A DNA stretch of 64,000 bases, taken from Methanofervidicoccus sp. A16 (GTDB lineage Archaea > AGJL01 > Methanococci > Methanococcales > Methanococcaceae). The notes below the pieces were generated by a model. That model worked only from the letters and a program-made list of their open reading frames with translations. It ran no database searches and was not told the DNA's origin. The translations under genes were made by a program, and so were the position numbers. Location of the stretch: NCBI RefSeq assembly GCF_003351865.1, contig NZ_CP022242.1, forward strand, positions 1,364,001 through 1,428,000, written 5' to 3'. Below, piece by piece: positions 3,666 through 56,164 of this stretch (the stretch's first letter is position 1; the number at the start of each line of letters is the position of its first letter).

Positions 3666-4001
3666 TTTTTAATAATATAATAATATTTAATATTAATAAT
3701 CAATTATAAAAGAAGACTAAAAATTCTTAAAAAGAGAAGTTAATAAAATCCTGTCCTACTTCTCTAATACTCAATGTAGAATAGATAATTGGGATAGATT
3801 TTACTTTTTTACCTTGTATTTACTCTTTAATAAACATTTTTTAAGATTTTCTATTTTTAATGTTGATTATTTTTTTATTATAAGTATAAACAGTTAATAT
3901 TTAATATATAAATAATTGTAATAAATAATAAAAAAAAGAGTAGAAATCCAATTACCTTTTCTCACTGAATACTCAACTTCAATTTTTTATATTGGGATAT
4001 A
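3666..4001. other. Intergenic gap pheS-cbiF
   Basis: This gap of about 335 bases is A+T-rich. It holds one copy of the degenerate repeat C (about 3726-3790) and T-rich runs after it. No gene or stable RNA is evident. Confidence 0.6.
3726..3790 (+). repeat. Degenerate intergenic repeat C, copy 1
   Basis: The copy contains AAATCCTGTCCTACTTCTC followed by CAATGTAG, matching the reverse complement of the copy at 23625-23700 over about 65 bases with several mismatches. Function is unknown. Confidence 0.55.
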
Positions 4002-6717: not shown

Positions 6718-6998
6718 AAAAAAGAACCTTAGTTCCCACCAAGTAGTGATTAAAAGAACAATGAAAACAATCAATATAAAAAATATCTTAGGATCTTTCT
6801 GAACACTTAGGTAAGATAGAATATCTCATTCTGAATTCCTGTATTAGAAGATATTTAGAGGATCATTTTTCTTCATTCTTCTTTTTAAATTTTTCTGTTT
6901 TTTAAATATTATTCTTTATTTTTTATTTTTATTAATTTTTATAATTATTTTTATTATTCTTTAAACTATTCTTTTGATGGGAACTAGGGTAAAAAAGA
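6718..6998 (-). mobile_element. MITE-like element, A type, with 8 bp target duplication
   Basis: The element proper is 6726-6990. The left end is ACCTTAGTTCCCACCAAG and the right end CTTTTGATGGGAACTAGGGT, forming terminal inverted repeats. A direct repeat AAAAAAGA flanks it (6718-6725 and 6991-6998). The A core (about 6790-6880) contains GATCTTTCTGAACACTTAGG. There is no open reading frame. Orientation is opposite to the copies at 28479 and 51148. Confidence 0.85.
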
Positions 6999-10267: not shown

Positions 10268-12001
10268 ATGGATTATGATCATATGTTCCATATTGCCAAA
10301 AAAGTGGTAGATAGTATTGAAAAGGGAGTAAAACCTCTAATTGGATGGGAGAGATCTGACGAAGTGGTAAAAATTGGGGCAGATGGTACTCCAACTAAGA
10401 GAATAGACGTAATTGCTGAGAACATTGCAATAAATTCCATCGAGAGGCACTGTAGTGCAGTACTTATAAGTGAGGAGATAGGGATTAAAAAGGTGGGAGA
10501 TGGACCACCAGAGTACCTTATTGTATTAGATCCTATAGACGGCACATATAACGCATTGAACAATCTTCCTATCTATTCCGTCTCTATAGCTATAGGTGAG
10601 ATACCTAGGAGAAATAGAGATATTGATGCAATAAAAAGTATGGATATAAGAGATCTGGAGTTAGGAATGGTAAAGAATATTGCAACAGGAGAGATATACT
10701 ACGGAAGGGCTAATAAGGGTGCTTATATCTTAGAGAAAAATGAGAAGGAATGGAAAAGAATAAAGGTATCTGATACTAAAAATTTGAAGGATGCTTCAGT
10801 AGGTGTCTTTGCCTACGGTTTAACAACTAATACACTGAATTTTATAAAGGATAGAAAGGTAAGGAGGATAAGGATATTTGGCTCTGCAGCCTTGGAGATG
10901 TGCTATGTGGCCAGAGGAGCCTTAGATGCATTTATAAATGTAAACGAAACTACACGACTATGCGATATTGCAGGGGGCTACGTTATACTTAGGGAATCTG
11001 GAGGGGTTATTACCGATAGGGATGGAAGACCCTTAAATATGAGATTGGATGTGAAGGAGAGGACATCTTTAATATGTTCAAATAGAACACTCCACAGGAA
11101 GTTAGTAGGTATATTTGGGAACAAGTGGGCACTGAAACCTACAAAGTTTGGAATAATATCTCGGATAGATAGGGAGGAAGCATTAGATCTCGTTGTTCAG
11201 ATTATTGATTATTTAGAATCTAAAGGTGTAGGCTATCTCTTAGAGGAGGAACTCTATAAAACTTTAAAGGATAAGATGGATATAGATAGATACGACTGTA
11301 AGGTGATGGAGGATATTAGAGAAATATCCCATATGTTGTCCATAGGTGGCGATGGTACTGTATTAAGGGCATCGAGGCTGATAGGTGGAAACGAGGTACC
11401 TATAATCAGTATAGATATGGGTACCGTTGGTTTTCTTACAGAGTTCAGTAGGGATGAGGTATTTAAGGCTATAGATATGGTTATAAGGGGAAACTACGAG
11501 ATCGAGAGGAGAACTAAATGTAGTTGTGTAGTTAAATTCAGGGAAGAGGAGAGGAAAGATTATCGTCAGAAAGTACTCCCAGATGCCTTAAATGAGGTAG
11601 TGCTGATAACGAAAAGTCCTGCAAAGATGATACACTTTGAGGTATATATAAATGGAGAGTTTGTAGAGGAGGTTAGGGCAGATGGAATTATAGTATCAAC
11701 TCCAACAGGTTCAACTGCCTATTCTTTAAGTGCAGGAGGTCCTATATTAGAGCCCTCAATGGATGCCTTTGTAGTAGTACCTATATGTCCCTTTAAACTC
11801 TTTTCCCGTCCTATCGTAGTAGATGGAAACTCCGAGATTTTAATAAGGATACTGAGAAAATCTGTACTGGCAGTGATAGATGGAAATGTAGAGGAGACTT
11901 TAAAAAAGGGAGATGAGGTTGTACTTAGAAAGTCAGATGCCTACGCCTATTTTGTTAAAGGTAGGAAATTCTACAGTAAATTGAAAAAGTTGGGAAATTG
12001 A
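10268..12001 (+). CDS. Bifunctional NADP phosphatase / NAD kinase
   Basis: This fusion of about 577 residues joins an inositol-monophosphatase-like domain (residues about 1-255; DPIDGTYNALNN near 88, and CDIAGG later) to an NAD kinase domain (about 270-577; GGDGTVLRA near 360, TPTGSTAYSLSAGGP). In Methanocaldococcus the same architecture (MJ0917) both phosphorylates NAD and dephosphorylates NADP. The ATG at 10268 is preferred because GGTGA lies 5 bases upstream; the in-frame GTG at 10259 is inside that site. It stands alone, divergent from the protease gene. Confidence 0.93.
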   Translation: MDYDHMFHIAKKVVDSIEKGVKPLIGWERSDEVVKIGADGTPTKRIDVIAENIAINSIERHCSAVLISEEIGIKKVGDGPPEYLIVLDPIDGTYNALNNLPIYSVSIAIGEIPRRNRDIDAIKSMDIRDLELGMVKNIATGEIYYGRANKGAYILEKNEKEWKRIKVSDTKNLKDASVGVFAYGLTTNTLNFIKDRKVRRIRIFGSAALEMCYVARGALDAFINVNETTRLCDIAGGYVILRESGGVITDRDGRPLNMRLDVKERTSLICSNRTLHRKLVGIFGNKWALKPTKFGIISRIDREEALDLVVQIIDYLESKGVGYLLEEELYKTLKDKMDIDRYDCKVMEDIREISHMLSIGGDGTVLRASRLIGGNEVPIISIDMGTVGFLTEFSRDEVFKAIDMVIRGNYEIERRTKCSCVVKFREEERKDYRQKVLPDALNEVVLITKSPAKMIHFEVYINGEFVEEVRADGIIVSTPTGSTAYSLSAGGPILEPSMDAFVVVPICPFKLFSRPIVVDGNSEILIRILRKSVLAVIDGNVEETLKKGDEVVLRKSDAYAYFVKGRKFYSKLKKLGN

Positions 12002-23466: not shown

Positions 23467-24088
23467 TGGAATCTTATAATTATAGTGGTAAACAGAAGTT
23501 TTTAAACTAAACATGGAGAATCTTAAATAAAAAAATAATAAAAATAATAATTATAAGAAAAATAAATTAAAATAAAAAATCTTAAAAGGTTAATAAATAA
23601 TAAATACAGATAAGAAGTAAATAAACTCCTATCCCCTAGACTACATTGGGTACTGGAGAAGTAGAATAGGATTTCTGTAATCCCCTCTTAGAAGTTTTTT
23701 ACCTTTTTTACTATCAATTTTTACTGTTCTTTACTCTCTCTAATTATTTTTATTATTATTTTATTACAGTTTAAAAGTTATGTTCTTGACTATAAAAGGA
23801 GCAGAAAGAATTAATCTCGTCGTTATTCTTAGAAGGCTCTGAACACTGGGAAGAATGAGAGAGGATCCTCTTAATCCTTTTCCTTAGAAACATTTTTATG
23901 GATAGAACCCTATAAACGAAAAAATCTAACTTTTAGAGAAAGGCAATTCCTTCTTTTTACCTTTAACTTTATTTTATTACAATAATATAATAATATTTAT
24001 AATTCTTATGTGCTTAACTATTAATATATAAATAATTTTTATAAGAATTATTGTAAAAAAATAAGATATTACTATAAGGTGAGAAAAT
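23467..24088. other. Intergenic gap with repeat C
   Basis: These 622 A+T-rich bases hold repeat C at about 23625-23700. The stretch around 23840-23890 (GGCTCTGAACACTGGGAAG, GAGAGGATCC) weakly resembles an A core but has no inverted ends. No gene was recognised. Confidence 0.5.
23625..23700 (-). repeat. Degenerate intergenic repeat C, copy 2
   Basis: On the minus strand it reads AAATCCTATTCTACTTCTCC followed by CAATGTAG; on the plus strand CTACATTGGGTACTGGAG leads to a small hairpin GGATTTCTGTAATCC and then T-runs. It matches copies at 3726 and 29290. Confidence 0.6.
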
Positions 24089-24906: not shown

Positions 24907-25550
24907 TTATAATAAACCCTAGTTCCCATCAAAAGGATAGTTTAAAGAATAATAAGAATTATAAAAATAATAAGATAAAAAATGTAGAAAATGTTTAAAA
25001 ATAAAAAACTTCTATTTATCTCAAATACAGAAATTTTAACAAAGAAGATTGGGGGAGAATAACCCTCCGAATACCCTCTAATACAGGGATTCAGAGTAAG
25101 ATCTCCTATCTTACCTAAGTGATCAGAAAGATCCTAAAGATATTTAACATTAACCTGGTTCCCATCAAAATTGTAAGAAGAATAATAAAAATAATGATTA
25201 TTATAATAAGAATAATAAATAATAAGAATAATAAAAATCTTAATGAGGAATAATAATAAAATGTAATAAAATTTGGATACTGGATAAACAAGTGATTATC
25301 ACTTTGATGGAAAGTAGGGCATTAATAATAACAACCTGCTAAGAATGATCTGTCTCACTTCCATTTAGTATCTTAGAGTATCCCAGGAGAGATTATCTTT
25401 TATTTTGAGTTTAATACCTTCTTTTTATTACTTTTATTATAATTATTCTTATCAGAATTTATTGATTATTTCATTATGATTTTTAGTTTAATAATTATTT
25501 TTTTATTATTTTTTAATTACTACTTGGATGGGAACTAAGGTTTATAATAA
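24907..25550 (+). mobile_element. MITE-like element, A type, split by a second element, with 9 bp target duplication
   Basis: The element is 24916-25541. The left end is ACCCTAGTTCCCATCAAAAG and the right end CTACTTGGATGGGAACTAAGG. The 9 bp repeat TTATAATAA flanks it at 24907-24915 and 25542-25550. The A core is at about 25055-25150; the element then breaks off and resumes near 25462 with a TTATTTCATTATGATTTTTA tail found in other A copies. The intervening 0.3 kb is a B-type element. Confidence 0.8.
25153..25460 (+). mobile_element. B-type element nested inside the A element
   Basis: It starts with ACCTGGTTCCCATCAAAATT, carries a further end-like sequence TTTGATGGAAAGTAGGGC at 25303-25320, and a B core from about 25335 (CTGCTAAGAATGATCTGTC, then TATCTTAGAGTATCCCAGG). 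It ends in TTATCAGAATTTATTGA without a proper right terminus. Boundaries on the right are approximate. Confidence 0.6.
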
Positions 25551-25619: not shown

Positions 25620-25882
25620 ACCTTATTTCCATCAAATTAATAATTTAAATATAATAAAAATAATAAAAAGATTAAGAAAATATTAAAATAAAAATATAAT
25701 ATCTAATAATCTAACAAAATTAATAACATCAAACTGTTAGGAAGGATCTGCTCCACTTCTATAGTATCTTAGAGTATTCCAGGAAAAGATTATCTATCTC
25801 TTATTTTGGTTTTAATACCTTCTTTTTATTACTTTTATTATTATTGCTATTCTTATTAGAATTTTTTGATGGGAATTAGGGT
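25620..25882 (+). mobile_element. MITE-like element, B type
   Basis: The left end is ACCTTATTTCCATCAAATT and the right end TTTTTTGATGGGAATTAGGGT, 263 bases in all. The B core lies at about 25735-25830 (GTTAGGAAGGATCTGCTCCA, TATCTTAGAGTATTCCAGG). No clear target duplication is seen. No coding potential. Confidence 0.75.
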
Positions 25883-25927
25883 TAGAATAAAATTAATGAT
25901 TATAATAAAATAAAGAATTAACAAAAG

Positions 25928-25985
25928 AGATAAAAGAGAAATCCTATCCAACCCCCTCCAGTACTCAAATAACCTAGAGAATAAA
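25928..25985 (+). repeat. Degenerate intergenic repeat C, copy 3
   Basis: AGAAATCCTATCCAACCCCC followed by TCCAGTACTCAAAT is a partial match to the C consensus, with an insertion relative to the copies at 3726 and 23625. Confidence 0.45.
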
Positions 25986-26213
25986 GGTTATATTTTACTT
26001 TTTAAACTGTTATATTCCTTATTTTAGTTATTAGTTATAATTTATTATTATTTTTTTAGTAATAACTGTTTTTGTTCGCGACTCTATTATTATTCTTAAC
26101 TATTACTTTGACTGAAATATGTTATTCTTTTTATTTTATTTCATCACTACAATTAATTTTATATATTTTTTATATTTTTTTATTTTTATCATCATATTAA
26201 AGGAGGTATTTAA

Positions 26214-28478: not shown

Positions 28479-28830
28479 ACTCTAGTTCCCATCAAAATGA
28501 TAATTTAAAGAATAATAAAAATAATTATAAAAAAATAATTATGATAAAAAAGAAAATTTAAAAATAAATAATAAAATAAAAATGTTTAAAAAATAAAAAA
28601 CTTCTATATTTCAGATACAAAAATTTTAAAAGAAGGTTGGAGGAATGATCCTTTGAAGATCTTCTAATATAGGAATTCAGAAATAAGATATCCTATCTTA
28701 ACTAAGGGTTCCGGAAAGATCCTAAGGATATTTAATGATTTTTATATTTGGTTATTTTCATTATGATTTTTATTATAACAATTTATTATCTTTTTATTAT
28801 TTTTTAATCACACTTGGTGGGAACTAAGAT
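28479..28830 (+). mobile_element. MITE-like element, A type, full length
   Basis: This 352-base copy has left end ACTCTAGTTCCCATCAAAAT and right end CACACTTGGTGGGAACTAAG. The core at about 28640-28740 includes GGAATTCAG, CTATCTTAACTAAGGGTTCC and GATCCTAAGGATATTTAATG. It interrupts two B-type sequences. No clean target duplication. Confidence 0.75.
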
Positions 28831-29186: not shown

Positions 29187-29289
29187 AAAGACGATATTAA
29201 TTATACTAAACAATAACCAATCTAAGATCTTAAATAAAAAATAACAATAAAGAATAAGTAAAATCAAAAAATAAGAATTAACAGGTAAA

Positions 29290-29365
29290 AAGTGAAACCT
29301 ACATTAAGTACTGGAGAGGACGGGATTTCTATTAATTCTCCTTCTTAAGAGTTTTTATCTCTTTT
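29290..29365 (-). repeat. Degenerate intergenic repeat C, copy 4
   Basis: On the plus strand CTACATTAAGTACTGGAGAGG and GGGATTTCTATTAATTCTCC match the copy at 23625-23700, again followed by T-rich runs (TTTTTATCTCTTTTTTTCTC). It lies just beyond the purF stop. Confidence 0.55.
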
Positions 29366-29456
29366 TTTCTCTCTTTTTTCTTTATCTAATTATATTTTTA
29401 CTTTTTTATTATTAATTTTATTATTATTTTTTAATCATTACTTTATTATTTTTTTT

Positions 29457-34113: not shown

Positions 34114-34451
34114 TTTAATATTACCTTAATTCCCATCAAGACTGTGATTAGAAGAATAATAAAAATAACAATCATAATAAAAAATAATAAAAATCTTAAG
34201 AGGAATAATAAAATAAACCTTAATTCCTATCAAAGTAACGATTTAAATAATAAAAAGATAATAAAGTTAATAATAGCAACCTGTTATAAAGGATCTACTC
34301 TACTTCCATAGTATCTTAGAGCGTCCCAGAAAGATTATCTCTTATTTTGATTTTAATACATTCTTCTTATATTTTTAGTTTTTATTCTCATTTCTTATTT
34401 TATTATTATTTTTTATATTATCATTTTGATGGGAACTAGGGTTTTAATATT
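34114..34451 (+). mobile_element. MITE-like element, B type, with 9 bp target duplication and a second internal left end
   Basis: The element is 34123-34442, flanked by TTTAATATT at 34114-34122 and 34443-34451. The left end is ACCTTAATTCCCATCAAGAC and the right end TTTTGATGGGAACTAGGGT. A second left-end sequence ACCTTAATTCCTATCAAAG begins at about 34217. The B core is at about 34285-34370 (GGATCTACTCTACTTCC, TATCTTAGAGCGTCCCAG). Confidence 0.85.
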
Positions 34452-37335: not shown

Positions 37336-37619
37336 ACCCCGGTTCCCATCAAGATTGTGATTAGAAGAATAATAATAAAATATGGTTATTATAATAAGAA
37401 TAATAAAAATTTAAAAGTAATAACAATAAAAAGGGATAGAGATAAAAATAAACCTTCCTTCCCATCAGTAGTGATCAATGAAAATAATCAGTATTTGGAT
37501 ATTCTAAGATCTTTCCGAACACTTAGGTAAAAATCTTTTTCTTATTTTTTATTATTTATTATTATTTTTATAATTATTCTTATTATTCTTTAAACTATTC
37601 TTTTGATGGGAATTAAGGT
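37336..37619 (-). mobile_element. A-type element remnant inside a longer element end
   Basis: The outer left end is ACCCCGGTTCCCATCAAG; a second left end, ACCTTCCTTCCCATCAG, begins at about 37452. The right end is CTTTTGATGGGAATTAAGGT. Only part of the A core remains (GATCTTTCCGAACACTTAGG). Flanks share AATTATTAT loosely but not as a clean duplication. Confidence 0.65.
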
Positions 37620-41623: not shown

Positions 41624-42256
41624 GTAGGTGAATATTCATAAAGAACATGTTAAGAACATAACATTATTAAAATTAAAATAATAATTATAAAAAATATATT
41701 AAAGTTAAAAAAATAATAAAAGAAATTAATAAATATAAAAAAGGAACAAAAATTCTCTTAAGAAAAGGGTTTAACAGAAATCCTGCCCTACTCCTTCACT
41801 ACATACTATAAACCTGAGGATAAAGTCATAATTTAACTAATATATATATATATTTTTATTATTTTTATTTTTATTATTTTAAGTATTAACAGTTTTTTAG
41901 GGTCTTTATTTTTTTTAATTTCAATTATTTTTCTATTATTTTAATTATTATTTAAGATCTCGATATTATTATATATGATTTAAAAAAGTTTTATTTTATT
42001 TTTGTAATAAATCAGAAAAATATAAAATCTCAAAAAAATTGCTATCTACTTAAGAAAGAAGAAAATGACAAAGGTTGGAAGAATAAAAGAGTAAAATCTC
42101 ACCGTTATCTCTTGGAATACCCTTAGTCCTGTAAATTCCGCTGACCCCCTTTTTCAGGATTTTTTACTCTTTTTTATTTTATTTTTATTATTCTTTAAAA
42201 TTTATTATAAAAAGTTAAAAAATAAAAAGTCAAGTAGTTATGGAATATAACTTCCC
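41624..42256. other. Convergent intergenic gap dph2 / hdrB
   Basis: These 633 A+T-rich bases hold repeat C at about 41760-41815. A G+C-richer patch is at about 42105-42165 (CTTAGTCCTGTAAATTCC, GCTGACCCCC), in which TCCTG and CAGGA could pair around a loop before T-runs; this may be a terminator for dph2. No gene recognised. Confidence 0.45.
41755..41815 (+). repeat. Degenerate intergenic repeat C, copy 5
   Basis: ACAGAAATCCTGCCCTACTC followed by CACTACATACTATAAACC matches the first half of the C consensus. Confidence 0.45.
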
Positions 42257-44014: not shown

Positions 44015-44440
44015 CAATATCTACCTTAATTCCCATCAAAGTAACGATTTAAATAATATTTAAATAATAAAAATAAGAATAATAAAAAGGACTAGAAAAA
44101 ACCTTAGTTCCCACCAGTAGTGATTAAAAGAATAATGAAAATGATAATCATTATAATAAAAATCATGATTAAAATAACTAGTATAAAATCTATATAAAAA
44201 CTATTGAATATCCTAAGACCCTTCCGAACCCTTAGATAAGATAGGAGATCTTATTCTGGTATCCACTATATATTAGAAGGTATTCAGAGGATCATTCTCC
44301 TCCAATCTTCTTTTTAAAATATTTTATATCGGAGATAATAGAAGTTTTCTATTTTTTAAACATTTTTTTATTTTTTATTTTTATTATTACTCTTATTATT
44401 TTTTAAACTATCCTTTTGATGGGAACTAGGGTCAATATCT
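44015..44440 (-). mobile_element. Composite MITE-like element with 8 bp target duplication
   Basis: CAATATCT flanks the whole unit at 44015-44022 and 44433-44440. The outer left end ACCTTAATTCCCATCAAAG (44023) is B-like; a second left end ACCTTAGTTCCCACCAG starts near 44100; the right end is CCTTTTGATGGGAACTAGGGT (44432). A full A core lies at about 44205-44310, with the hairpin TAAGATAGGAGATCTTA. Confidence 0.85.
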
Positions 44441-46896: not shown

Positions 46897-49800
46897 ATGG
46901 TATTTTTATCCGAAATACATCTAAAAAATTTCAAATCCTTTAAAGACATTAAATTAAAGATACCTCCGGGATTTACCGCCATAGTAGGACCAAACGGCTC
47001 TGGAAAATCTAACATTGTAGATGGGATATCCTTTGTTCTGGGAAAAACCTCTGCAAGATCCCTAAGGGCTGAACGATTTAACGAGTTGATCACCTACCAC
47101 AGGGGGAAAAGAGCAGAATACGCCGAGGTAATACTGTTTTTTGACAACAGAGACAGAAAGATACCGGTAGATTCAGATAAAGTAGGCATCTCCAGGAAGG
47201 TAAAGTTGAAGGGGGAGAATAACTACTACCTTATTTGGTACGAGGAGAAAGTGGAGGATGGTGAAAAAAAGTTTATTGAGAGAAGGAGAAAGATTAGAAA
47301 ATCTGAGGTAATGGATATATTCAGTAGGTTATCCCTTGGTGGAGAGGGATTGAACGTTATACTTCAGGGAGATGTTACGAAAATAGTGGAGATGTCTCCA
47401 AAGGAGAGGAGGAAACTCTTAGATGAGATAAGTGGGATCTCAGAGTACGACGAAAAAAAGGAAAAGGCTCAGAGGGAGTTAGAAAGGGCTAGGGAGTACA
47501 TAGAGAGGATAGATATAAGGATAAAGGAGGTAAAAAGTAATCTAGATAAACTTAAAAGGGAGAAGGAGGAGGCTGAGAGATACATAAAACTAAGTGAGGA
47601 GTTGAAAACTGCCAGGTATGTTTTAACATCTAAAAAAGTAGAGGAGTTGAAAAAGAAGATAAAGGACATTGAGAAAAATATAAAGGAACTGGAGGGATCC
47701 AGAGAGAGGTACATTGAGGAATTAGAGGAGATAGAAGGTAAGATATCTAACTTAAGGCATAAGTTGGATAATGTAGTTGAAGAGTTGAAGGAGAAGGGAA
47801 ATGAGGAGATCTTGGAGTTACACAAAACTATAAGGGAACTTGAGTTAACCCTTGAAAGTGATAGGAAGAACCTCGACAACACATTGAATGAATTAAAGAA
47901 TAGTAAATTACAGTTAAAAAATAAAAGAGAGGAGTTAGATAGTACCAGAAGAAAGGTTGAAGAGTTGAAAGAGGAGATACTAGAGAAAGAGAGGGAGTTA
48001 AAATCTATAGAGGAGAAGATAGAACTTCTAAAAAGTGAGAGAGACTCCTTAAAATCTAAGATAGAGAGATGGGAAACTCGTATAAATATACTTAAAGGGA
48101 TGGAGGGGAAACTTACAGAGAAGTTCAACACCTATCAGAGGGAACTTCACAGGTTAAGGATGGAGTTAAGTAAAGTCCTTGGAGATATAGATAGAAAATC
48201 CTTCCAGATATCCCAAAATACAGAGAGGATAGAAAAACTTAGGAAAGAGTTAGAGGCATTGGAGAATGAGGAGTTAGATACTAAGTCTATCTACAGGGAG
48301 TTGGAGGATGTATCTGTGGAGTTGGAACTGTTGAAGAGGAAGGTAGAGAAACTTGAGGAAGAGAAGAAAAAACTTCAAAGGAGAAGGGAGGAGTTATACA
48401 GTGAATACGCTAAGGAAAATGGGAGAATTAAGGCGTTAAAGGAGATGGAGAATTACACCATAGACAACACAGTAAGGAGAGTATTGGAGGCTAACCTTCC
48501 AGGAGTTGTAGATATGGTGGGAAACTTAGGAAAAACGAAGGAGAAGTATAAGGTGGCAATAGAGGTTGCAGGGGGCAGTAGGTTGAAGTATATCGTAGTT
48601 AGAAGTATGGAGGATGGTGTCAGGGCTATAGAGTACCTTAAGAGGAACAGGTTGGGTAGAGCCACATTCCTACCTATGGATAGAGTAAAAGGTAGGGAAC
48701 CAGAACATATCTTAGAGGAAGGTGTAGTGGGAAGGGCTATCGATCTAGTGGAGTTTCAGGAGGAGTACAGAGGAATATTCAACTACGTATTTGGCAACAC
48801 CTATATAGTTAAGGATCTAAGAACTGCCAAGGAACTTTCAAAAAAATACAGGGCCAGATTTGTATCCCTCGAGGGAGACGTTATAGAACCTTCAGGTGCT
48901 ATGGTGGGAGGTAGTGTTAAGCCCTCTGCCAGTATAAAGGTTGAAATAAACACTGAAAAACTTGAGAGGATCAAAGAGGAGTTGGAGGATATAGAGGAGA
49001 GGTTAAATGGTAGAGATGGGTTGATAGTTCAGATAGAGAGACTAAATGAAAGGATAAACTACTACTACAGTAAAAAGTTGGAGTTGGAGGGTAAATTGGA
49101 GTTTATAAGAGATAGGGAGAGAAGAAAGATAGAGACTGTAAGGGAGTACAACAGAAAAATAGAAGAACTTCGAACTATCAACAAAAAACTTCAGGAAGAG
49201 TTGAAGGAGTTGGAGAAGTTGAAGGAAGAGTTAGAAGGCAAGATAGAGGATCTGGAGAAAAAGGTGGAAGAGACTATCAGTAAAAGGGAGGATATATTAA
49301 AGGAATTGAAATCCTACGAGGACTCTACAGTTATAAGAAGAATCAGAGAGTTGGAGGAGGAGATAGGGAAACTGGAGAGGAGAAGAGATACCTTAAAGAA
49401 CGATATAAAAGGAAATAAAAAACTAATAGAGGAAGTCCTTATTCCAAAGATAGAAGAGACTAAGGAAAAAATAGAGGAGTTAAATAAAAAGATAGAGATA
49501 CTAGAGAAAAACGTTGAATTCTACAGAAACAGTATTGAAAAGGGAGCTAAAACCTTGAGAGAGAAGAGGGAGAGATATTTAAGGCTAAGTGAGAACCTAA
49601 ATGAACTTACAGAGAAAAAGGAAAAATACGAAAATGAAATAAAAACACTTTACAGTAGAAAAAAGATACTCTCAGAAAAGATCGAGGATATAAATAGGGA
49701 GATAAATAAGTTATCCCTAGAGAAGGTTAAATGGGAGACTAAGTTAGAGGAGGAGGAAAAGAAACTCTTAGAAATTGTGGGAGATCTACCTAAGGTGGTG

Positions 49801-50526
49801 GCGGATAAATTAGAGAAAATGGAAGTTGAGGAGTTGGAGAGATATATTCAAGAAGTTGAAACAGCCATCAAAAAACTTGAACCTGTAAATATGAGATCTA
49901 TTGAGGACTATAGATACATAGAGGAACGTTATAGGGAACTACTCTCTAAGAGGAAGGAGTACGAGAAGGATGAAGAAAAATATCTCCAACTAATCCAGGA
50001 GGTTGAAAGAAGGAAAAAAGAGGTATTTATGGAGGTATTTAGAAAGGTATCTAAAAATTACGAGGATATTTATAAGAGTATTGGAGGTAGAGGAAGATTG
50101 AGATTGGAGAATCCAGAGAATCCATTTGAAGGAGGACTCTTAATAGATGCCTCTCCACAGAATAAGCGACTTCAAAGTTTAGATATGATGAGTGGAGGGG
50201 AGAAATCCCTAACGGCGCTGGCCTTTTTATTTGCTATTCAGAGGTTGACACCTGCCCCCTTCTATGTTTTAGACGAGATAGATGCTACATTAGATACTAA
50301 AAATGCAAGTTTAATAGGAGATATGATAAAGAATGCCTCAAAGGAATCCCAGTTTATAGTGATATCCCACAGGGAGCAGATGATAAGTAGGGCGGATACT
50401 CTGTATGGTGTTTATATGGAGAATGGAATAAGCAAGGTAGTTGGAATAAGGTTGGATCTGGAGGAGGGTAAAAACAATTCTCAGGGAGATATAGTTATAG
50501 GTAAAACGACCTGTGCTAAAGAATGA
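46897..50526 (+). CDS. smc: Chromosome segregation ATPase SMC
   Basis: This 1209-residue protein has an ABC-type head split between the ends: Walker A GPNGSGKSN at about residue 31, signature MSGGEKSLTAL near 1099, and Walker B FYVLDEIDATLD. Two long coiled coils (about 165-510 and 665-1040) flank a globular hinge with GAMVGGSVKPS at its end. It would work in chromosome compaction and segregation. It extends about 40 residues past the usual end, with a Gly/Asn-rich tail. RBS ACAGGTGAAGAT. No ScpA or ScpB gene is adjacent. Confidence 0.97.
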   Translation: MVFLSEIHLKNFKSFKDIKLKIPPGFTAIVGPNGSGKSNIVDGISFVLGKTSARSLRAERFNELITYHRGKRAEYAEVILFFDNRDRKIPVDSDKVGISRKVKLKGENNYYLIWYEEKVEDGEKKFIERRRKIRKSEVMDIFSRLSLGGEGLNVILQGDVTKIVEMSPKERRKLLDEISGISEYDEKKEKAQRELERAREYIERIDIRIKEVKSNLDKLKREKEEAERYIKLSEELKTARYVLTSKKVEELKKKIKDIEKNIKELEGSRERYIEELEEIEGKISNLRHKLDNVVEELKEKGNEEILELHKTIRELELTLESDRKNLDNTLNELKNSKLQLKNKREELDSTRRKVEELKEEILEKERELKSIEEKIELLKSERDSLKSKIERWETRINILKGMEGKLTEKFNTYQRELHRLRMELSKVLGDIDRKSFQISQNTERIEKLRKELEALENEELDTKSIYRELEDVSVELELLKRKVEKLEEEKKKLQRRREELYSEYAKENGRIKALKEMENYTIDNTVRRVLEANLPGVVDMVGNLGKTKEKYKVAIEVAGGSRLKYIVVRSMEDGVRAIEYLKRNRLGRATFLPMDRVKGREPEHILEEGVVGRAIDLVEFQEEYRGIFNYVFGNTYIVKDLRTAKELSKKYRARFVSLEGDVIEPSGAMVGGSVKPSASIKVEINTEKLERIKEELEDIEERLNGRDGLIVQIERLNERINYYYSKKLELEGKLEFIRDRERRKIETVREYNRKIEELRTINKKLQEELKELEKLKEELEGKIEDLEKKVEETISKREDILKELKSYEDSTVIRRIRELEEEIGKLERRRDTLKNDIKGNKKLIEEVLIPKIEETKEKIEELNKKIEILEKNVEFYRNSIEKGAKTLREKRERYLRLSENLNELTEKKEKYENEIKTLYSRKKILSEKIEDINREINKLSLEKVKWETKLEEEEKKLLEIVGDLPKVVADKLEKMEVEELERYIQEVETAIKKLEPVNMRSIEDYRYIEERYRELLSKRKEYEKDEEKYLQLIQEVERRKKEVFMEVFRKVSKNYEDIYKSIGGRGRLRLENPENPFEGGLLIDASPQNKRLQSLDMMSGGEKSLTALAFLFAIQRLTPAPFYVLDEIDATLDTKNASLIGDMIKNASKESQFIVISHREQMISRADTLYGVYMENGISKVVGIRLDLEEGKNNSQGDIVIGKTTCAKE

Positions 50527-51139: not shown

Positions 51140-51484
51140 ATTCTTAGACCCTAGTTCCCATCAAAGGGATAATTTAAAGAATAATAAAAATAATTATAAA
51201 AATAAAAAATATAAAGAAAAGGTTTAAAAAACAGAAACTTCTATTATCCTAGATAATAAAATTTTAAAAAGAGGATTGAAGGAGAATGACCCTCCGAATA
51301 CCCTCTAATATAGGTATTCAGAATATGATCTCCTATCTTACCTAAGTGTTCAGAAAGATCTTAGGATATTTAATGATTTTTTATATATAGGTAGACTGAT
51401 ATTTTCATTATGATTTTTATTACAATAATTATTATTTTCATTATTCTTTTAATCGCTACTTGGTGGGAGTTAAGGTATTCTTAG
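51140..51484 (+). mobile_element. MITE-like element, A type, with 8 bp target duplication
   Basis: The element is 51148-51476 with left end ACCCTAGTTCCCATCAAAGG and right end CTACTTGGTGGGAGTTAAGG. ATTCTTAG flanks it at 51140-51147 and 51477-51484 (9 bp if the shared T is counted). The core at about 51275-51370 has CCTCTAATATAGGTATTCAG and CTTACCTAAGTGTTCAG. It lies about 30 bases beyond the topA stop. Confidence 0.88.
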
Positions 51485-51515: not shown

Positions 51516-53420
51516 TTACCCACCTTTTTTTCCTATATTCCCAATATACCTACATTTTGGATAGTTAGAACACCCTAAAAACTCTCCGTACTTACTCCTT
51601 CTAACTACAAGATTCCCTCCACACCTTGGACACTTTTTAGAGTTCTCTATATTTTCATCCTCTTCCATCCTCTTTATCAACTCTCTTCCAATATCAGCCT
51701 CTCTACTCTTAACTTCCTGGAGTATCTTCCTCAATCTCTCCTCAGCCATCTTTAAAACATCTTCTTTCTTCATTTCTCCTTTCTGTACTTTCTCCAGTTT
51801 GTCCTCCATATCCCTTGTCATCCCTTCCTCTACTATCTCGGGGCAGTACTTCTTTAAAGTCTCAATTACAGCCATACCTAAGTTGGTTACCCTAAGATGT
51901 CCCTTCTCCTCAACTACGTAACCTCTCTTTATAAGTTTTTCTACAATCTCCGCCCTTGTAGATTTTGTTCCCAATCTCCTCCTTTCTAACTCTTTAATAA
52001 TAGAGGACATGCTGTATCTCTTAGGAGGTTTAGTTTTTTTCTCCTCTAGTTCTATCTTCTTAATAGATACAATATCTCCCTCTCTGAAATTGGGAATCTC
52101 CTTCTCTTCAAAGTTGCTGAAGTAGTATATTTCATGCCAACCATTATATAAGGTTCTGGCACCACTGAGTTTAAACAACTCACCACCTATATCTAGATGT
52201 ACCTCTATATACTCCCTCCTCATATCGTCCCAGAATGCACTCAAAGTCCTTCTAACTATAAGATCGTAGACCTTCCTCTCCTTAGAAGTTAGAGGCTCCT
52301 CAGGTACATCTACAAAGTGTATTGCAGGATGGGCAGGATCCTCCTTCTTACCTTTAACAGGCTTTCTACTTTCTTTAAGTATTCTTTCAGCGTATTTTCT
52401 GTACTCCTCAATTTCACTTATTTTTTCCAACATATTTTTTAGATACTTCCAGTTATCAGGAAGTTTCTGGGAACTTGTTCTTGGATAGGAACAGTATCCC
52501 TTTTCGTAGAGTTTCTGGGCAATCTCCTGGGTTTCCTTTGGAGAGAGTTTATATATCCTATATGCCTCCCTCTGTAGAGTTCCCAAGTCGAAGGGAGGAA
52601 GAGGTTTTATACTTCTTTCCCTTCTTTTCACCTTTAGAACTTTACCCTCTTTTTTATCCTTTATCTTACTGTATATCTCCTTTGCCTCTTTTTCATCCCA
52701 AAATTTCTCCCTACTATGGATAGCCTTTATATCCTCTTCCAATATTCCCTCTATTACCCAGTACTTTCTACTCTGGAAGTTCTTTATTTCCCACTCCTTC
52801 TCCACTAAAAAGGCTAAGGCTGGACCTTGAACCCTTCCGGTGCTCATTGTTCTCCATCTATTTACAGCCTTGAGAGATTGCATAAGGGCTCTTGAGACGT
52901 TGATACCGTAGTACCAATCTAACTTATGCCTACTCTCTCCAGCATCTACGAGACCAGAGTCTATCCTATCTGGGTTTTCATATGCCCTTATTATCTCCTC
53001 CTTTATTAAACTGGAGAATCTCATTCTCTTTGCATCTCTTCTTCCACAGATGTGATAGAGGGCATGATAGCCTATCAACTCTCCCTCAATATCCCAATCT
53101 GTCGCTATATAGATATCATCTACATCCTTTGAGAGTTTTTTTAAAGTGTCTATGTACTTCTTTACGTACTCCTTTCCCTTTACCGTCCATGCAGGTACCC
53201 ACCTAACATCGAATACTGGATACTCTCCAAATCTCCTATTTTTATTCTCTTCCTCCAATGTAAAGAGATGTCCAACTGCAGAGGCTACGATGATCTTCTC
53301 TCCCTTCCTCTCTACCTCGTAGTAAGGTACTCCCTTGTAGGATCTCTTTTTTACCTTTCCTAGAGCACTACCTATTTTCTTCGCAACCTTAGGTTTCTCG
53401 CAGATTATTAACTTTGTCAT
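51516..53420 (-). CDS. topA: DNA topoisomerase I (type IA)
   Basis: This protein of about 634 residues relaxes DNA by passing one strand. The TOPRIM domain is N-terminal (LIICEKPKVAKKI, ATDWDIEGELIGYH), and the catalytic tyrosine is Tyr312 in YCSYPRTSS. MSTGRVQGPALA is another core motif. One zinc finger ends the protein (CPRCGGNLVV, GCSNYPKCRY). The ATG at 53420 is preferred, with GGGATTG upstream; the TTG at 53426 would be within this spacing. Confidence 0.95.
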   Translation of the reverse strand: MTKLIICEKPKVAKKIGSALGKVKKRSYKGVPYYEVERKGEKIIVASAVGHLFTLEEENKNRRFGEYPVFDVRWVPAWTVKGKEYVKKYIDTLKKLSKDVDDIYIATDWDIEGELIGYHALYHICGRRDAKRMRFSSLIKEEIIRAYENPDRIDSGLVDAGESRHKLDWYYGINVSRALMQSLKAVNRWRTMSTGRVQGPALAFLVEKEWEIKNFQSRKYWVIEGILEEDIKAIHSREKFWDEKEAKEIYSKIKDKKEGKVLKVKRRERSIKPLPPFDLGTLQREAYRIYKLSPKETQEIAQKLYEKGYCSYPRTSSQKLPDNWKYLKNMLEKISEIEEYRKYAERILKESRKPVKGKKEDPAHPAIHFVDVPEEPLTSKERKVYDLIVRRTLSAFWDDMRREYIEVHLDIGGELFKLSGARTLYNGWHEIYYFSNFEEKEIPNFREGDIVSIKKIELEEKKTKPPKRYSMSSIIKELERRRLGTKSTRAEIVEKLIKRGYVVEEKGHLRVTNLGMAVIETLKKYCPEIVEEGMTRDMEDKLEKVQKGEMKKEDVLKMAEERLRKILQEVKSREADIGRELIKRMEEDENIENSKKCPRCGGNLVVRRSKYGEFLGCSNYPKCRYIGNIGKKGG

Positions 53421-53615
53421 AGTCAATCCCTTAAAATCATAATTAAACCATAAATATTATATAACATTGAAAGAAACCTATTTAACATTTCAGAAGTATT
53501 TTAAACATATTTATATTTAATTTAATGGATATGTTTTAGAAAAAATTTTTAAAGTATTAACTGTCTTAAAAATATTTACTATAATTATTAATAACCTCTC
53601 TTTCTGGAGGAGAAT

Positions 53616-55895: not shown

Positions 55896-56164
55896 TAGTT
55901 AATAACCCTAATTCCCATCAAAAGGATAGTTTAAAGAATAATAAAAACAATAAAGATTTTAAAATAAAACTTCTATAACCCAGATATAACATTTTAAAAA
56001 GAAGATTGAAGGAGAAAATCTTCTGGATTATCTTTAATACAGGAATTCAGAATGAGATATTCTATCTTACCTAAGGGTTCGGAAAGATCCTAAGGATATT
56101 TTTATATTGGTTATTTTCATTCTTCTTTTAATCACTACTTGGTGGGAACTAAGGTTAGTTAATA
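55896..56164 (+). mobile_element. MITE-like element, A type, with 9 bp target duplication, just before the NapH-like gene
   Basis: The element is 55905-56155 with left end ACCCTAATTCCCATCAAAAG and right end CTACTTGGTGGGAACTAAGG. TAGTTAATA flanks it at 55896-55904 and 56156-56164. The core is at about 56005-56100. At 251 bases it is shorter than other A copies, with a deletion in the right arm. Confidence 0.88.

Follow-up and report, generated by a model that had tools for sequence, protein, structure and literature searches.

The sequence at 51148-51476 of the analysed stretch raises the question whether it is a transposed unit and, if so, which enzyme moved it. The whole stretch, here called the window, comprises 64,000 nucleotides and equals positions 1364001-1428000 of a single contig of 1,504,113 bases (99.94% complete). 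Genes for archaeal phenylalanyl-tRNA synthetase, RFC large subunit, aRF1, topoisomerase I and SMC were found in it and mark the host as an archaeon, probably of the Methanococcales. The neighbours of 51148-51476 are SMC (46897-50526) and topA, encoding DNA topoisomerase I (51516-53426).

The element and its copies in the window

A sequence-only reading had described inverted ends at 51148-51476 and flanking ATTCTTAG on both sides, which proved correct to the base. Both target-site duplications (TSDs) were read directly.

51140-51147, no strand: left TSD ATTCTTAG, 8 bp
51148-51476, plus strand: MITE copy with core of subfamily I, 329 bp; inverted ends ACCCTAGTTCCCATCAA and ACCTTAACTCCCACCAA
51477-51484, no strand: right TSD ATTCTTAG, 8 bp

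Five other copies with differing duplications had also been named, and all five were recovered exactly. This needs one slight qualification: the copies at 24907-25550 and 44015-44440 are composite or extended, not simple. The other copies in the window are as follows.

6726-6990, minus strand: MITE copy, subfamily I, 265 bp; TSD AAAAAAGA at 6718-6725 and 6991-6998
24916-25541, plus strand: composite MITE, subfamily I core and subfamily II core, 626 bp; TSD TTATAATAA at 24907-24915 and 25542-25550
25621-25882, minus strand: MITE copy, subfamily II; no clear duplication
28479-28828, plus strand: MITE copy, subfamily I, in a group of additional ends that reaches 29186; no clear duplication
34123-34442, minus strand: MITE copy, subfamily II, 320 bp; TSD TTTAATATT at 34114-34122 and 34443-34451
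37336-37619, minus strand: diverged MITE copy with degenerate ends; no clear duplication
44023-44432, minus strand: extended MITE, subfamily I plus 78 bp past the inner end at 44101, 410 bp; TSD CAATATCT at 44015-44022 and 44433-44440
55905-56155, plus strand: MITE copy, subfamily I, 251 bp; TSD TAGTTAATA at 55896-55904 and 56156-56164; site unoccupied in the relative G014

The two core subfamilies, I (51148 type) and II (34123 type), have mainly the ends and A/T-rich subterminal DNA in common. Most elements measure 222-410 bp. The ends start with ACC and consist of a 17-bp core, followed by a weaker A/T-rich extension. The composite form of both subfamilies was also detected at L124:3982-4676 (TSD ATTTTTAT), and the extended form of 44023-44432 recurs at L127:16057-16455, likewise with different duplications. 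Each enlarged form thus seems to have been transposed as a whole. Nesting was observed as well, with an element at L126:11089-11473 lying inside 10864-11695 and carrying its own 10-bp repeat. Nearest copies typically differ by 15-25%, suggesting mostly old insertions; the closest pair seen, 34123-34442 and L126:4411-4732, differs by about 4% (95.7% identical).

A second dispersed intergenic repeat family, which does not have the ACCYTARTTCCC ends, is located in the window at 3719-3887, 23499-23797, 25889-26073, 29224-29435 and 41649-41921. It was also found in G014 (L152:1365-1582 and L153:2988-3246).

Target duplications, copy number and empty sites

Family statistics were obtained from 464 kb (31% of the genome), made up of the window and twenty stretches of 20 kb sampled systematically 70 kb apart. 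Inverted ends within 2.5 kb of each other were treated as linked pairs; for the unlinked control, a left end was paired with a right end from another stretch. Of the 107 linked pairs, 25 are flanked by exact direct repeats with a length of 7 bp or more, peaking at 8-9 bp. In the control, the flanks of which are equally AT-rich, such repeats were measured for 0.7% of 3826 pairs, corresponding to about 0.8 expected in 107. The earlier claim that the site-specific duplications can hardly be chance is borne out by this excess. For 24 sampled elements with ACCYTARTTCCCAYCAA inverted on both sides, the repeats are 7-11 bp long (mode 8-9).

That no copies exist outside the window had been named as one of two findings that would speak against transposed units, and it is contradicted by the genome-wide search. 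With at most one mismatch, ACCYTARTTCCCAYCAA gave 348 matches in the 1.50-Mb genome (175 on the plus and 173 on the minus strand), and none were obtained with the reversed pattern as control. At most two mismatches yielded 130 ends in the 464 kb of window and sample. Hence, the genome holds roughly 170-210 elements, derived either from 348/2 or from about 421/2 as scaled from the sample. According to profile searches the family makes up 4.0% of the sampled DNA and about 17% of the sampled non-coding DNA. A sizeable part of the non-coding DNA of a small archaeal genome is accounted for by one element family, the helper enzyme of which has decayed. The ends occur in 9 of the 22 genomes of the taxonomic family and are commonest in the window's own genome (G000), G014 and G016.

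The orthologous gaps in relatives were compared in search of empty sites, as had been proposed. For one family member that is not in the window, L125:5305-5570 (genome 986305-986570, TSD AATCTTTT), three relatives have an exact single-copy site. The flanks of this member, joined with one copy of the target, align continuously across the insertion point at 88-90% with G008, G018 and G012, and the empty sites differ from the joined flanks by a 1-base indel within the target. Base resolution was reached for this element only; at L115:15202-15512 no precise empty site was obtained, the flanks being too diverged. In the window, the element is missing from relatives at two sites, without base resolution. 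At 44.0-44.4 kb, 837 bp lie between the aligned flanks in the window versus about 20 bp in G018, G011 and G012, and at 55.9 kb 466 bp versus 20 bp in G014, which is about 90% identical in the genes. The intergenic DNA at both sites is too turned over to display a single target copy. For the 51148 site the neighbouring gene order in the closest relatives is unlike that of the window. In the gene-order comparison of its surroundings, SMC and topA were located on separate contigs in G008 and G014, and topA is followed by a different gene in G018 and G012.

These results bear on the reading of the copies as intergenic repeats with a function (structured RNA or REP/BIME-like), flanked by direct repeats that arose by chance in AT-rich DNA. 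Such a reading would fit the location of the copies, nearly all of which are intergenic (about 1% of the element bases overlap ORFs), as well as the very AT-rich flanks and the G+C content of the TSDs of 8%. It is opposed by the excess of TSDs over the unlinked control and contradicted by the exact empty site. Furthermore, the cores gave neither a consensus fold as RNA (-2.0 and -0.8 kcal/mol) nor an Rfam match, and a structured RNA was rejected for them on these grounds. No tRNA was detected either. We consider this explanation extremely improbable.

IS982 genes with the same ends and the question of the helper

The elements had been described as non-autonomous and MITE-like, and their short length, their multiple copies and the interiors without transposase homology agree with this. 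Transposase genes bounded by the family ends were searched for as suggested; an intact one was detected in G020, a frameshifted one in G017, and a decayed fragment in the own genome. The element of G020 (L041:1501-2544, 1044 bp) has the ends ACCGTAGTTCCCATCAA and ACCCTAATTCCCATCAC, which bound an intact ORF of 260 aa. The protein matches NF033520 (transpos_IS982, E 4.5e-37) with 128 bits, slightly under the NCBIfam cut-off of 130, and the DDE domain PF01609 (E 3.6e-10). In G017, which belongs to the window's own genus, an element of 942 bp (L062:1477-2418) has like ends and a repeat of 7 bp (TTAAATT); its IS982 gene is frameshifted. The ends of the IS982 family start with AC, and its inverted repeats are about 18-35 bp long.

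In the own genome, searches with the transposase protein and the IS982 model detected no intact IS982 gene but only one decayed fragment. This pseudogene, at about 218.0-218.3 kb of the contig (L065:1374-1731), is the remnant of an IS982 C-terminus and runs into an end, ACCCTAGTTCTCATTAC; over its last part it shares 70% identity with the C-terminus of the G017 transposase. Thus, the mobilising enzyme, formerly placed elsewhere in general terms, almost certainly belongs to the IS982 family, with elsewhere meaning another lineage or the past rather than an intact gene detectable on the own chromosome. Since the helper gene has decayed, the family is probably immobile now.

A transposase of another family may also have moved the elements, the shared ends then being coincidental or convergent. 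The interiors of the MITEs show no homology to the IS982 gene. In addition, the two intact IS982 copies of G020 (L041 and L056), which are 100% identical, have no direct repeat, and the other copies in this genome have direct repeats of at most 6 bp (6 bp for L069). Given intact copies without repeats of 8-9 bp, the G020 transposase would be no more than a candidate for making such duplications. On the other side, the ends agree at 15-16 of 17 positions with those bounding IS982 genes in relatives, and the decayed IS982 copy of the own genome has nearly the same terminal sequence. Transposase searches of the own genome covered PF01609, the IS982 model and the transposase protein; the one with PF01609 gave no match, and hence no other candidate. 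Taken together, a mover other than IS982 seems unlikely.

With a probability of roughly 0.93, the elements are MITEs that were mobilised in trans by an IS982-family transposase, the helper having decayed since. We infer from sequence both this transposase as the mover and a cut-and-join mechanism. An IS982-family DDE transposase would recognise the ends of about 17 bp and join the element to a staggered, AT-rich target, and the repair of the gaps would produce the duplication of 8-9 bp. The elements, encoding nothing recognisable, would be moved in trans; about 170-210 copies have accumulated, nearly all between genes. Some would have been enlarged by nesting or by taking up an adjoining end and then moved as a composite, and the helper gene would have decayed later. 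The family is thereby tied to IS982, as a case of a MITE burst apparently outliving its transposase.

The origin of the interiors was considered as well. No transposase coding homology was detectable inside them by tblastn, and an interpretation as deleted IS982 genes was rejected for this reason. The IS copies detected thus did not give rise to the MITEs by simple internal deletion.

Known MITEs and the CRISPR arrays of a relative

An IS982-derived MITE was already described for the Cardinium endosymbiont of Oedothorax gibbosus (PMC9769881). Both systems are short (about 240 bp in Cardinium, about 250-410 bp in the archaeon), have IS982-family ends and no transposase gene, and are mobilised in trans. 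In the bacterial Cardinium the MITE derives from parental IS982 copies that are still present intact. Here the host is archaeal, the parental gene is decayed, and nothing in the interiors can be recognised as an IS982 remnant. The MITEs SM1-SM4 of Sulfolobus solfataricus P2 (reviewed in PMC10969869) are also archaeal, multi-copy and non-autonomous. They belong to other hosts and families and reach 25-44 copies per family, whereas about 170-210 elements with two core subfamilies and one common set of ends were found here. Putative MITEs of Staphylothermus marinus (PMC2678158) are archaeal repeats of about 260 bp with inverted ends as well, but occur in 14 copies, and related transposase genes are still there. 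The MITE type is therefore already known; notable here are the copy number and the decay of the helper in the host. The open-access papers searched included none about IS982 MITEs of this order, which does not prove their absence.

Ends of the IS982 type were also observed at CRISPR arrays of the relative G021, in which about 12 arrays have a common leader of about 420 bp. No CRISPR arrays were recognised in the own-genome sample. Homologous leaders at nine loci in other genomes of the order gave two weak end-like matches (3 mismatches) and no bounding pair. At 295600-296671 of G021:C1 (L188:1601-2672) an array with its leader lies inside IS982-type inverted ends, with low-complexity outer repeats of 7 bp, TTTTATT. 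A second array with leader, at about 1280334-1281419 (L194:1835-2919), is enclosed by such ends and by outer repeats of 11 bp, TTATTCTCTTA; its right end is without the last six bases. Three more arrays have one end left (the right one at L189 and L190, the left one at L195). With at most one mismatch, 3 of the 5 end matches in G021 are located within about 550 bp of an array.

The arrays with bounding ends are suggestive of CRISPR-carrying elements of the same type. The transposition system that spread the MITEs may have transferred some CRISPR arrays to new positions as well, which we propose tentatively, at somewhat less than even odds. If true, this would be one route to the many small arrays with the same leader in these methanogens, and confirmation of the G021 versions would provide a concrete mechanism for the dispersal of CRISPR arrays.

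An open frame of 317 aa was furthermore detected in 16 identically scoring places of G021:C1 (e.g. 315945-316049). It matches the IS982 model weakly (E 0.006) and is probably another multi-copy insertion sequence.
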